This document shows positions 7,571 to 29,838 of a DNA stretch of 32,574 nt, one piece after another. The notes beneath the pieces were generated by a model. That model made no database searches, was not told where the DNA came from, and saw only the letters and a program-made list of their open reading frames with translations. How positions within the stretch are numbered: position 1 is the stretch's first letter; each line of letters begins with the position of its first letter. The DNA lies in contig JAFWYB010000044.1 in NCBI GenBank assembly GCA_017517865.1, positions 1 through 32,574 on the forward strand, given 5' to 3'. This stretch comes from Clostridia bacterium. Lineage in GTDB: Bacteria > Bacillota > Clostridia > Oscillospirales > Acutalibacteraceae. The translations under genes and the position numbers were made by a program.

Positions 7571-7597
7571 AATGGGCTGTATTTTACAGCCCATTTT
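7571..7597 (+). terminator. Terminator of glgP
   Basis: A perfect 11-bp stem AATGGGCTGTA/TACAGCCCATT with a TTT loop starts 4 nt after the stop codon and runs into TTTT. Confidence 0.85.
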
Positions 7598-7598
7598 C

Positions 7599-7616
7599 AG
7601 TAGTCAGTAGTCAGGA
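7599..7616 (+). repeat. Heptamer array (CAGTAGT)
   Basis: Two and a half units of CAGTAGT directly follow the glgP terminator. This is the same motif family as the arrays at 8699, 24362, 24820 and 29811. Confidence 0.75.
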
Positions 7617-8698: not shown

Positions 8699-8729
8699 CT
8701 TACTACTTACTACTTACTACTGACTACTC
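8699..8729 (-). repeat. Heptamer array (AGTAGTA/AGTAGTC)
   Basis: About four tandem 7-base units, TTACTAC on the plus strand with the last TGACTAC, directly abut the hairpin at 8677-8697 and lie 12 nt past the serS stop. Confidence 0.85.
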
Positions 8730-20482: not shown

Positions 20483-20513
20483 AATGCAGAATGCAGAGTG
20501 CAAAATGCAGAAT
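20483..20513 (-). repeat. Heptamer array (TGCAGAA)
   Basis: Four imperfect 7-base units (AATGCAG, AATGCAG, AGTGCAA, AATGCAG) lie just upstream of the gyrA start. The motif is unrelated to the other arrays but has the same period. Confidence 0.75.
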
Positions 20514-21611: not shown

Positions 21612-21836
21612 AATTCGCAATTCGCAATGCGCAATGCGCAATCGCGGACAAGGTTTTGCAAACAAAAACCATATATTCCGCCCGATTTACGAAATTTTAT
21701 TATTTAAATTAAAATGATTTATATTCTTAAAGAATGCCTTTATTATATTTTTTACAAAAACATAAAAACGGCGGGATGCACATTTAAGTTTCCGCAAGCT
21801 TTAAGCGCGATTGCGCATTGCGAATTGTGCATTGAC
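21612..21836. mobile_element. MITE-like element 1, bounded by heptamer arrays
   Basis: A non-coding element of about 225 bp. Its left end (21612-21646) and right end (21804-21834, inverted) are tandem CAATTCG/CAATGCG units finishing in CAATCGCG. Inside the left end is a block (hairpin GGTTTT/AAAACC, then TATTCCGCCCGATTTACGAA) shared almost word for word with element 2. The right end abuts the gyrB stop codon. No transposase or convincing reading frame is present, and no clear target duplication was seen. Confidence 0.7.
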
Positions 21837-23838: not shown

Positions 23839-24072
23839 CAATTCGCAATTCACAATGCGCAATGCGCAATCGCGGGTAAGGTTTTATTAAACATAAACCT
23901 TATATTCCGCCCGATTTACGAATTTTTTATTTATATTAAAGTTTAATATTAACTGATTTGTAAGCTTGATTTATGAAGTATTTCTTATTCTAACCTGACG
24001 GGGCGGAATAAAGCCTCTCTGTTTTAGTTTTTTCCCCCGCGATTGCGAATTGCGAATTGCGAATTGCGAATT
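23839..24072. mobile_element. MITE-like element 2, bounded by heptamer arrays
   Basis: A non-coding element of about 234 bp between remB and gyrB. The left array (23839-23874) and inverted right array (24039-24072) are CAATTCG/CAATGCG repeats finishing in CAATCGCG. Further in, both ends carry TATTCCGCCC, giving imperfect terminal inverted repeats of about 60 nt. Its left 90 bp match element 1. The right array supplies bases directly after, and overlapping, the remB stop codon. Confidence 0.72.
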
Positions 24073-24331
24073 ATTTAAAGGGTTCTTCCGTTCTTTTTAA
24101 AAGTGTTGTGGTTGATATCTGCGAAAGATAAACTATTATCTTACCCTCTTTGTCGTTACAGACGATGAAGCTTTTCGGGAGCTCATTTGAAACCTCAATA
24201 ACTCTGCCTTCCTTTTGTGCAAGGGAAAGATAGTCCCTTGTTTTTTTTGCAACGGTGGTATTATCAAGGTCGAATATTCCTATTATTTCGTCAAAGGTGA
24301 TAACGGTGTTCTGACCGAGGTGTAGATACAT
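24071..24331 (-). CDS. remB: DUF370 regulator RemB (YaaB)
   Basis: A small 86-aa protein of the DUF370/RemA-RemB family. In Bacillus subtilis YaaB, renamed RemB, is encoded between recF and gyrB, and affects extracellular-matrix gene expression. Recognisable features are MYLHLGQNTVITFDEIIGIF, the FDLDNTTVAKKT segment and KSFIVCNDKEGKIIVYLSQIS. The frame is open to 24400, but that extension reads through a heptamer array; ATG at 24331 with AAGGAGAAATACA in front is the start. It should be co-transcribed with recF, but a cassette with the four-helix-bundle gene now separates them. Confidence 0.92.
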   Translation of the reverse strand: MYLHLGQNTVITFDEIIGIFDLDNTTVAKKTRDYLSLAQKEGRVIEVSNELPKSFIVCNDKEGKIIVYLSQISTTTLLKRTEEPFK

Positions 24332-24361
24332 TGTATTTCTCCTTTTATACTTACTGCTTAA

Positions 24362-24411
24362 AGTAGTAAGTAGCAAGTAGTAAGTAGTAAGGGAATGCAC
24401 CTTCGTGCATT
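24362..24411 (+). repeat. Array-plus-hairpin module, left flank of the four-helix-bundle gene
   Basis: Four AGTAGTA-type heptamers (24362-24390) lead through AAGGG into hairpin AATGCAC/GTGCATT (24394-24411, loop CTTC) and a T-run. In the plus orientation this has the same order (array, AAGG, hairpin) as the right flank has on the minus strand, so the gene lies between inverted copies. The hairpin plus T-run could also terminate plus-strand transcripts. Confidence 0.75.
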
Positions 24412-24429
24412 TTTAATATCCCTCAGCAC

Positions 24430-24786
24430 TTATTTTTCTGTATTATTTTTAATTAGCTTACTTATTATTCTCTGTATTTGATTACAAAGATTAAAAGCAT
24501 TTTCTGCTTGTACCTGATTCAGATAATTCTGACGCAGACAAATATATAGCTGTGTTTCAAGTTCAGCCCGTGAGCCTCTTGCAATACAAAAAAAATTTAT
24601 ATACTCTTTCGTTGAATGCCTTTCATATCCTTCTGCAATATTAGAAGGAATAGAAACTGCCGCTCTTTTCATCTGATCTGAAAGAGCATAGGTTTCTTCT
24701 TTAGGTAAAAATTTTACCAACTTATAAATTTCATCTACTAAATCCATAGATTTTTGCCAAACAATCAAATCTTTATAACCATTCAT
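24430..24786 (-). CDS. Four-helix-bundle protein (S23 / 23S rRNA intervening-sequence type)
   Basis: A 118-aa all-helical protein of the family first found in 23S rRNA intervening sequences. The N-terminus (YKDLIVWQKSMDLVDEIYKL), the middle (YALSDQMKRAAVSIPSNIAEG) and the third helix (SRAELETQLYICLR) are family hallmarks. Molecular function is not established; a related fold serves as the Avd accessory protein of diversity-generating retroelements, but no reverse transcriptase is nearby. Codon use is plainly more AT-rich than in recF or remB, and the gene is flanked by inverted array-hairpin modules, so it looks transferred. It interrupts the conserved recF-remB pair. The ribosome site is AAAGG at 8 nt, 12 nt past a hairpin. 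Confidence 0.9.
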   Translation of the reverse strand: MNGYKDLIVWQKSMDLVDEIYKLVKFLPKEETYALSDQMKRAAVSIPSNIAEGYERHSTKEYINFFCIARGSRAELETQLYICLRQNYLNQVQAENAFNLCNQIQRIISKLIKNNTEK

Positions 24787-24798
24787 TTTTATACCTTT

Positions 24799-24846
24799 AA
24801 ATGTGCCATAGGCACATTTCCTTGCTACTTGCTACTTACTACTTTT
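24799..24846 (-). repeat. Array-plus-hairpin module, right flank; supplies the recF stop
   Basis: On the minus strand the last recF codons read into AGTAGTAAGTAGCAAGTAG, giving the C-terminal VVSSK and the TAG stop. This array then leads through CAAGG to the hairpin AAATGTGCC/GGCACATTT (24799-24819, 3-nt loop), 12 nt before the four-helix-bundle start codon. Confidence 0.8.
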
Positions 24847-25925
24847 CCCTCGGATACCTCAAAAGCAGTTCCTGCCTTAAGGTTTGAAACCGCAGAGGGG
24901 TCACAGCAGGTGATAAAAACCTGCCAGTCCTTTATGTGGTTGAGAATGTAGTTCTGCCTTGAAACGTCAAGCTCGCTCATAACGTCGTCAAGAAAAGCTA
25001 TGGGCTGCTGTGATGAAAAATCTTTTATAACTGCCGCTTCGCCCAATTTAAGTGCAAGGGCCGCCGACCTTTGCTGACCCTGAGAGCCGTAGTTTCTGGC
25101 AGGCAGTGAATCTATTTTTATTGAAAGATCGTCTCTGTGGGGGCCTACCGAGGTAAAGCCGTTTATAATATCGTTTCTGCGGGACTGATAAAGCTGGTTT
25201 TTCATATTTTCATAAAGCTCCTGCTTATCTGCGCCGTAAACAACGGTCTGCTGACTGTATTCTATTTTTAGCTTTTCACGGTCTGATGAAAGACCTGAAT
25301 AAATTTCATCGGTAAAAAGTGAAAGCTTATTTATATATCCTAATCTCTGCCTTATAATTTCCGAAGCAAAAAATGCAATTCTTTCTTCCCAAATATCAAG
25401 GGTATCATAAAGCTCCGAATGAAACTGAACGTCTTTAAGAAGTACGTTTCTCTGAGCCACCGCCTTGTTATACTGTGAAAGAGTAACGCCGTATTTTGGC
25501 TTGAGCTGACTTATGGCAATATCGAGAAATCTGCGCCTTTCATAAGGTCCGTCTTTAACAAGGGAAAGATGCTCGGGAGAAAATACAACCGCAAGAAGCT
25601 CACCCATAATTGCTGTTGCACTTTTAAGCTTAACACCGTTGAGTATGAATTTTCTTCCCTCGCCTATTTCAAGTGAAGCACTCTGATCTCTGCCGTAGGC
25701 GTTGAAATCCATATAAAGGTTTGCTTTGGTGCTGTTGAAATTTATCAGCTCCGCATCCTTTGAGGAGCGGAAGGATCTGCAGCCGGTAAAAAGCCACATA
25801 CCCTCAAGCAGATTTGTCTTGCCCTGAGCGTTTTCACCGTAGATTATGTTTATACCCTCGCAGGGCTCTATATTTATATGTGAAATGTTACGGAAGTTTT
25901 TAACCTCCAGCTGTTTTATATACAT
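24825..25925 (-). CDS. recF: DNA repair protein RecF
   Basis: An SMC-like ATPase that, with RecO and RecR, helps load RecA at gaps. The 366 aa show Walker A GENAQGKTNLLE, the ABC signature region GSQGQQRSAALALKLGEA and Walker B PIAFLDDVMSELD. The start MYIKQLEVKNFRN follows GGAGGATCT. The order dnaA-dnaN-yaaA-recF is standard for Firmicutes. Odd feature: the final residues after EVSEGK come from a heptamer array, whose TAG ends the gene, so the native C-terminus or stop was probably replaced by the cassette carrying the four-helix-bundle gene. All catalytic motifs lie upstream of this and are intact. Confidence 0.96.
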   Translation of the reverse strand: MYIKQLEVKNFRNISHINIEPCEGINIIYGENAQGKTNLLEGMWLFTGCRSFRSSKDAELINFNSTKANLYMDFNAYGRDQSASLEIGEGRKFILNGVKLKSATAIMGELLAVVFSPEHLSLVKDGPYERRRFLDIAISQLKPKYGVTLSQYNKAVAQRNVLLKDVQFHSELYDTLDIWEERIAFFASEIIRQRLGYINKLSLFTDEIYSGLSSDREKLKIEYSQQTVVYGADKQELYENMKNQLYQSRRNDIINGFTSVGPHRDDLSIKIDSLPARNYGSQGQQRSAALALKLGEAAVIKDFSSQQPIAFLDDVMSELDVSRQNYILNHIKDWQVFITCCDPSAVSNLKAGTAFEVSEGKVVSSK

Positions 25926-29094: not shown

Positions 29095-29239
29095 GTGTTT
29101 TTTAAAAATAGTGATAAGAGGCGCTAAAAAGGAATAAACGGCTTAAAGGGTGTGTTTTGTGAAAAATAGAGCTAAAGTGTTTTAATTTATATTTTTTGAT
29201 GAATAAAGAAGATAAATTTTTTGAATTTTATGTTGTTTG

Positions 29240-29330
29240 AAAAAATAACTCGATCTCCGCTCAAGCCGCGGGGAGGGTACATTTAATGCCTCGCCTGAAA
29301 GGAGAGGTGTCCGAAGGACGGAGAGGTTCT
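29240..29330 (-). repeat. Structured repeat R2, partial copy c
   Basis: On the minus strand GCGGCTTGAGCGGAGATCGA matches the corresponding block of copy b, GCGGCTCGAGCGGAGAGCGA. The upstream hairpin has been replaced by a GAGGTGTCC/GGACGGAGAGG-type stem region. Confidence 0.5.
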
Positions 29331-29760: not shown

Positions 29761-29810
29761 CATATAATTTCGCGGGGATAACCTTACAGTTTTATCACAC
29801 GGCGGCGCGT

Positions 29811-29838
29811 GACTACTGACTACTGGCTACTGACTACT
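29811..29838 (+). repeat. Heptamer array (GACTACT)
   Basis: Four tandem units, GACTACT GACTACT GGCTACT GACTACT, sit between two R1 copies. Confidence 0.85.

Follow-up and report, generated by a model that had tools for sequence, protein, structure and literature searches.

Why does a gene for a four-helix-bundle protein stand between recF and remB, and why is it enclosed by arrays of a single heptamer in inverted orientation? The locus lies in a stretch of 32,574 nucleotides (here, the window) from contig JAFWYB010000044.1 of a Clostridia bacterium (assembly GCA_017517865.1). An earlier note, made from the letters of the window, had read the gene and its flanks as a mobile unit and had suggested a link between the protein family and the arrays. 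To our knowledge, the S23 family to which the gene belongs has no known function, though it is widely annotated as four helix bundle protein; we likewise know of no agreed role for intergenic heptamer arrays, which we understand to be overrepresented in bacteria. Our analysis indicates that the locus probably holds a transposase-free element with the architecture of an rRNA intervening sequence (IVS), set in a gap between co-directional genes (overlapping the recF 3′ end), with inverted heptamer arrays, usually of four to five units, as its ends and an S23 gene as its sole gene.

The S23 gene (positions 24430 to 24786, minus strand) encodes 118 amino acids. Its membership in the S23 or 23S_rRNA_IVP family follows from profile searches, in which both matches exceed the curated cut-offs (PF05635, 23S_rRNA_IVP, E=4.1e-41, 139.9 bits against 33.8; TIGR02436, four helix bundle protein, E=2.4e-39, 133.9 against 24). 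Its PDB relatives 2gsc (protein XCC0516) and 2rld have five chains each. The host genes recF (24825 to 25925, minus strand; TIGR00611, E=3.7e-103) and remB (24071 to 24334, minus strand; NF046065, E=4.9e-18) both run in the same direction as the S23 gene. On the remB side, the terminal array occupies positions 24361 to 24391 (plus strand; AAGTAGT in 4.4 units, 31 bp), and on the recF side its reverse complement occupies positions 24821 to 24844 (minus strand; 3.4 units), so placed that the recF stop codon and the last recF codons lie inside it. Each array adjoins an inner hairpin, AATGCACCTTCGTGCATT at 24394 to 24411 on the remB side and AATGTGCCATAGGCACATT at 24800 to 24818 on the recF side (neither assigned a strand), and the 14-mer AGTAGTAAGTAGTA has 11 matches in the window with at most two mismatches, whereas 100 shuffled sequences average 0.25. 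When the 504-nt stretch is folded as RNA (z = −8.5), the two arrays pair as the closing stem. The gene had been described as AT-rich compared with its neighbors, and it is: its GC content is 29.7%, against 37.9% for remB, 42.4% for recF, 46.8% for gyrB, and 43.4% for the whole window. The description of its flanks as inverted AGTAGTA modules with hairpins needs a correction. Inverted arrays and, in the window, where they were checked, the hairpins are indeed present, but AGTAGTA as such is not the module, the ends being period-7 arrays of varying sequence.

We surveyed 34 genomes of the genus, in which 30 recF loci were read. Because remB is present in 29 of these loci, and 21 of the 29 junctions are tight (a gap of ≤80 bp between aligned ends) and free of arrays, the two genes can be regarded as normally adjacent, and the empty sites that a mobile unit calls for exist. 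An intact S23 gene occupies the junction in two genomes (the window's own and G012), and a shortened copy, sitting between arrays of another heptamer, occupies it in a third (G003). The remaining five junctions, judged by eye, hold gene-less inverted arrays (L134 and L152), a single array (L125 and L136), or another ORF with arrays (L140). A reading of L134 and L136 as one orthologous gene-less element with swapped heptamers was dropped; their internal match is short and L136 has no clear left array. The genome nearest by RecF (G018, 91%) has no S23 gene at recF-remB and carries there one lone 30-bp array of a different heptamer (L125). Its pgk-tpiA junction (L294) is similar, with a solitary array of 30 bp whose heptamer differs from that of the S23 element present there in the window's own genome; these lone arrays are possibly a minimal form of the element or mark an insertion hot spot.

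Two further junctions, where the other two heptamer-flanked S23 genes of the window's own genome sit, are likewise filled in few genomes, with the reservation that S23 was sought there with a single query and distant members may escape: pgk-tpiA (n=28) has S23 in 2, arrays alone in 7, and neither in 19, and tpiA-gpmI (n=29) has S23 in 3, arrays alone in 3, and neither in 23. Elements at one site can carry different heptamers, as do the S23 elements of the window's own genome and G012, and also those of G032, G017, G008, and G029. Of the four S23 genes in the window's own genome, three lie between inverted heptamer arrays, each of a different heptamer, and the fourth (L004, see below) has none, so that flanking arrays are a feature of most copies there and not of all. 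Plasmids offer comparable sites. The nrdB-nrdA gap holds an S23 element in Nostoc edaphicum, but in Calothrix NIES-4105 it measures 40 bp and is nearly empty, the flanks being 85% identical. At cas6-cas4, Anabaena 90 and Pseudanabaena galeata each carry an element, the two differing in heptamer, and the gap measures only 36 and 23 bp in two other plasmids; a strain with 99% identical flanks has an unrelated repeat in place of the S23 element. In Dolichospermum UHCC 0315A (L285), the cas6-cas4 gap that holds the S23 element in Anabaena 90 is occupied by another repeat, whose inverted ends resemble GTAGGTTGGGTTG.

To put the association of S23 with arrays in numbers, we defined an inverted pair as two period-7 arrays, one on each side of the gene, of which one is the reverse complement of the other with at most one mismatch. 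The genus yielded 109 S23 matches in 32 of the 34 genomes; nine short or low-scoring rows were dropped, and 89 of the 100 analyzed have at least 300 bp on both sides. Inverted pairs flank 36 of these 89 S23 genes and 7 of 496 control ORFs of the same loci (Fisher p=4.5e-26); at a strict threshold, the counts are 20/89 and 2/496. No pair was found around the 89 genes at periods 5, 6, 8, 9, or 10. The picture is the same in named genomes, sampled as the best 80 of 578 confirmed matches by query similarity: 30 of the 80 loci have inverted period-7 pairs, none has one at periods 5, 6, or 8 to 12, and the loci of this sample without an inverted partner show a left array in 19 cases and a right array in 10, one locus having both. 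When both flanks of at least 300 bp were required, 28 of 73 loci from this sample had inverted pairs, compared with 6 of 268 neighboring ORFs, and re-pairing the flanks among these loci gave a mean of 2.8 inverted pairs and a maximum of 5. Two-sided inverted placement of the same heptamer is thus about 29 times (genus) and 17 times (named genomes) as frequent around S23 genes as around the ORFs used for comparison.

The 30 inverted loci from named genomes span at least nine phyla, as assigned from record titles (Bacillota, Bacteroidota, Kiritimatiellota, Planctomycetota, Chloroflexota, Acidobacteriota, Cloacimonadota, Hydrogenedentota, and Pseudomonadota). S23 occurs in 33 plasmid records, of which nine were read, a nonrandom choice (the best hits plus H12 and H20). 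All eight intergenic cyanobacterial S23 genes among them have inverted arrays by alignment; because L277 and L278 are 97.5% identical, the eight represent seven independent cases, and a stricter detector found arrays in six of the seven. Viral contigs contributed 23 S23 loci, of which 19 were tested after four near-duplicates had been left out; seven have inverted arrays of period 7 and one of period 8, the latter being the only inverted pair at any non-7 period tried. A search of 50,697 phage records gave no S23 match. The supposed link between this protein family and heptamer arrays is supported, and the pattern is general beyond the window. Our searches of the open-access literature gave no earlier statement of it.

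Does the unit also move? Nine related element pairs were aligned. In two of them (G018_C108/G012_C53 and G026_C98/G029_C2), the match ends exactly at the outer edges of the two arrays, and the flanks beyond are unrelated. Two more pairs (G003_C6/G009_C41 and G003_C24/G018_C141) begin to match at the array on the left side only, and in the remaining pairs similarity ends inside the element or the members belong to a clade without heptamers (clade C, see below). The S23 proteins of G003_C6 and G009_C41 are 94% identical, compared with 61% for RecF, which indicates transfer. S23 genes mostly follow the direction of their tandem neighbors (45 of 52 cases in the genus, 22 of 24 genus cases with arrays, and 46 of 53 in named genomes), and the reading frames of the genus matches are mostly open. 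No target-site duplication was found; the 23S rRNA gene of Azospirillum swaps 19 nt for 473 nt, and the other empty sites are too diverged to tell. Taken together, the two clean pairs bounded by arrays at unrelated flanks and the filled and empty sites support the note's mobile unit without a transposase of its own, and joint movement of the S23 gene and its arrays is well supported by these comparisons.

The ends follow a common plan. The heptamer differs from element to element, yet it is the same at both ends of one element. Among 138 arms of 69 elements (a set that keeps L193/G004_C51, which look like one record with the same arrays, and the near-duplicates L272/L274), 82 have 4.0 to 4.99 units, with a median of 4.5; in the genus, the commonest arm lengths are 31 and 32 bp (32 of 68 arms). 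A scan of 206 kb of genus sequence shows 21 arrays of period 7 and no more than one at any of periods 5, 6, and 8 to 11, and 11 of the 14 stronger period-7 arrays, gene-less ones included, measure 29 to 34 bp. An arm slightly longer than four units presents any short core five times, and the S23 protein of Xanthomonas is described in the accessible part of PMC4990558 as a homopentamer. Across the 69 elements, the inward polarity of the heptamer is kept (mean mismatch of 3.06 in the same versus 3.72 in the opposite polarity). Heptamer distance correlates with S23 distance in 38 genus elements (r=0.63; 0 of 2,000 permutations), in genus pairs below 70% identity (r=0.54), and in the 69 elements (r=0.44; 0 of 2,000 permutations). 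Co-inheritance on one element would account for part of this correlation, which therefore does not prove recognition. Single elements seem to show perfect mirroring of variant units between the arms (L180, L192, and G007_C247), and strict mirror copies were considered as a general rule. This was set aside, because mirrored order did not beat permutation over 32 elements (15 better, 14 worse; p=0.10); the arms thus share a consensus and are not strict copies.

S23 genes are also found in 23S rRNA IVSs. On plasmid AZO_p2 of Azospirillum lipoferum 4B (L289), the one IVS examined, a 23S rRNA gene contains an S23 frame between inverted C[AG]GA[GT]GA arrays, and the RNA folds with these arrays as the closing stem (z = −9.7). 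The rrn copy on AZO_p3 of the same strain has no insert, with flanks 100% identical over 534 and 594 nt; the insert comprises 473 nt in place of a 19-nt hairpin tip. For the Coxiella IVS, the accessible text of PMC4990558 describes tandem heptameric direct repeats just upstream of the S23 frame, their number varying between strains, and argues that the S23 protein is probably not expressed, the RNA mattering more. The window element shares with rRNA IVSs an S23 ORF, terminal inverted repeats that close a long RNA stem, and a patchy distribution, and with that of Azospirillum also the inverted period-7 arrays. rRNA IVSs, however, sit in rRNA, whereas the window element, like most others in this study, has protein genes on either side, and the ends are treated here as one general class of heptamer arrays. 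Since the window element lies between recF and remB and not inside an rRNA gene, as its relative L289 does, we call it IVS-like and do not file it as an rRNA IVS. The comparison supports an IVS architecture for it, and we think it somewhat likelier than the alternatives taken together that it is a mobile element of the IVS type, located outside rRNA and terminated by heptamer arrays.

Gene-less forms exist as well. Inverted pairs of heptamer arrays without a gene flank gyrB on both sides in the window, one of CGCAATT at positions 23839 to 24072 in the gyrB-remB gap (arms 23839 to 23870 and 24042 to 24072) and one of AATGCGC at 21612 to 21834 adjoining gyrB (arms 21612 to 21642 and 21805 to 21834, only the first of which passes the stronger threshold); neither is assigned a strand. 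Other heptamer arrays in the window (7597 to 7614, 8699 to 8728, 20483 to 20513, and 29810 to 29838) stand alone, with no inverted partner nearby. A different kind of repeat, 40 bp long and in 2.4 direct copies, adjoins dnaA at 29153 to 29245 and, we presume, may be part of the replication origin. At L107 (G031:C22:30184), a full inverted TTATCTA pair stands on either side of the S23 gene, giving the impression that the gene lies between two gene-less elements.

Whether gene-less arrays are confined to genomes with a matching S23 gene has a mixed answer, in counts that take genomes as independent and ignore kinship. Arrays of the AATGCAG type occur in 15 of 34 genomes, 10 of which have an AATGC[AG]A-type S23 gene with two-sided arrays (counting the GCAAAAC case of G009 and a one-sided case in G005 raises this to 12), against none of the other 19. 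For the AGTAG type, found in 7 of 34 genomes, a cognate S23 gene is present in 3 of 7 versus 0 of 27. AATTCGG-type arrays occur in 20 of 34 genomes, with a cognate S23 gene in 3 of 20 versus 0 of 14, which is not significant (p=0.19), and can be abundant where no cognate S23 gene was detected (121 matches in G011).

Not all S23 genes fit this plan. The 100 genus genes form three clades, A (14), B (49), and C (37), with inverted arrays detected in 8, 32, and 0 genes, respectively; 23 of the 63 genes of clades A and B have no detected inverted pair, and heptamer arrays are absent from all 37 genes of clade C. Seventeen of these 37 lie downstream of a tRNA gene of the same strand, 150 to 322 bp away; the tRNAs involved are diverse, and no nearest tRNA gene within 600 bp is downstream or in opposite orientation. 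The tRNA-S23 spacers inspected contain hairpin arrays. L004 of the window's own genome (G000:C49:10203-10502) is one of the 17; its spacer is a hairpin array in which the linkers GATGAAATC/GATTTCATC are complementary, and S23 is preceded by a TATAAT-like box. Clade C is thus a second S23 architecture, without heptamers.

Several known systems resemble parts of this picture. Heptamer tandem repeats of cyanobacteria, Beggiatoaceae, Xanthomonas, and Nostoc (STRR-like, TAACTGA, and GGGAATC) are, like those here, intergenic period-7 arrays, and inverted heptamer pairs in Xanthomonas, where the repeat is GGGAATC (PMC4692102), and TAACTGA arrays of two to six copies (PMC4679880) have been described; unlike here, the accessible parts of these two reports do not tie them to S23 genes or to the ends of mobile elements. 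MITEs are similarly short and intergenic, with inverted ends and gene-less forms, and the gene-less forms of the window are short, nonautonomous, and bounded by terminal inverted repeats. Unlike MITEs, however, the elements here end in tandem heptamers that change between elements, and no cognate transposase is known for them; no target duplication was found either, at sites of which most are too diverged to show one. The Avd proteins of diversity-generating retroelements form a related four-helix-bundle family, whose profiles the window protein does not match above the cut-offs (NF033474, 28.1 bits against a cut-off of 80; bAvd PF22296, E=6.6e-7, below its cut-off), and no reverse transcriptase is among the identified window neighbors (recF, remB, gyrB, yaaA, and dnaN). 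Finally, PMC3936711, in the portion available, counts 18 S23 (23S_rRNA_IVP) genes within cas loci, frequently in the vicinity of cas4 or cas6, the placement also seen here at cas6-cas4, and reads them as having a CRISPR-linked function. Insertion is the better explanation here, because two other plasmids have a short cas6-cas4 gap with nothing in it.

How might such an element work? The S23 protein, a pentamer if the solved relatives are a guide, may recognize the array of its own element in RNA or in single-stranded DNA, with about five heptad-spaced cores available, one to a subunit. Such recognition would keep both arms matched and could assist in copying or moving the element to sites that are transcribed and in many cases structured; the S23 protein would serve gene-less copies in trans. 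That S23 reads its own array is a plausible proposal. A wider one, which we advance tentatively and hold to be a little short of probable, is that the elements form a pan-bacterial, transposase-free class with self-matched heptamer ends of free sequence, whose pentameric S23 reads about five cores and which spread through 23S rRNA hairpins, operon gaps, and, in one subfamily, sites downstream of tRNA genes. If pentameric S23 does read heptad-spaced cores, protein and array would coevolve, and rRNA IVSs and part of the unexplained intergenic arrays would be two faces of the same class.

There are other ways to read these data. The array-stem RNA or its DNA hairpin might be the true mobile unit, moved by other machinery (a cellular reverse transcriptase or hairpin recombination), with S23 as a frequent passenger. 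Gene-less inverted-array elements at the same junctions and in the window would fit this, as would arms that pair as a long stem with or without an rRNA context, the strong co-direction with host operons, which suggests action at the RNA level, and the suggestion, in the part of PMC4990558 at hand, that the S23 protein is dispensable in the Coxiella IVS. We nevertheless consider it rather unlikely, in that the cargo gene is repeatedly S23 across phyla, the heptamer follows S23 relatedness, and S23 frames are mostly open. Still less probable is an expression or addiction module, in which S23 would bind the arrays and regulate its own or a neighboring mRNA, the cassette being retained for that reason, and movement would amount to occasional homologous or illegitimate recombination between arrays. 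The position of the cassette within operons in the host direction, the overlap of a window array with the recF stop codon, and the short gene-less arrays in many gaps agree with such a module, but its sites are mostly empty in relatives, heptamers differ between sites, and the bulk of gene-less copies need no addiction.

A further alternative is that the arrays are ordinary local tandem repeats and S23 merely lands in the same spacers. In its favor, heptamer arrays are common in genomes of the genus, and 53 of 496 control ORFs have an upstream array at the strict threshold. It is already contradicted by the enrichment of two-sided inverted pairs reported above, by the array being the element edge in the two clean pairs, and by the narrow range of arm lengths, and we give it almost no weight.

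We return to the reading of S23 and the arrays as the gene and the ends of one element. If it is true, many unexplained repeats would be the footprint of a mobile element class, and the rRNA IVS would gain relatives, its terminal repeats being explained as well. Where S23 genes occur in operons, those of CRISPR included, they would then be insertions and not functional partners, and the biochemical question raised would be that of the binding of the S23 pentamer to its own heptamer array.
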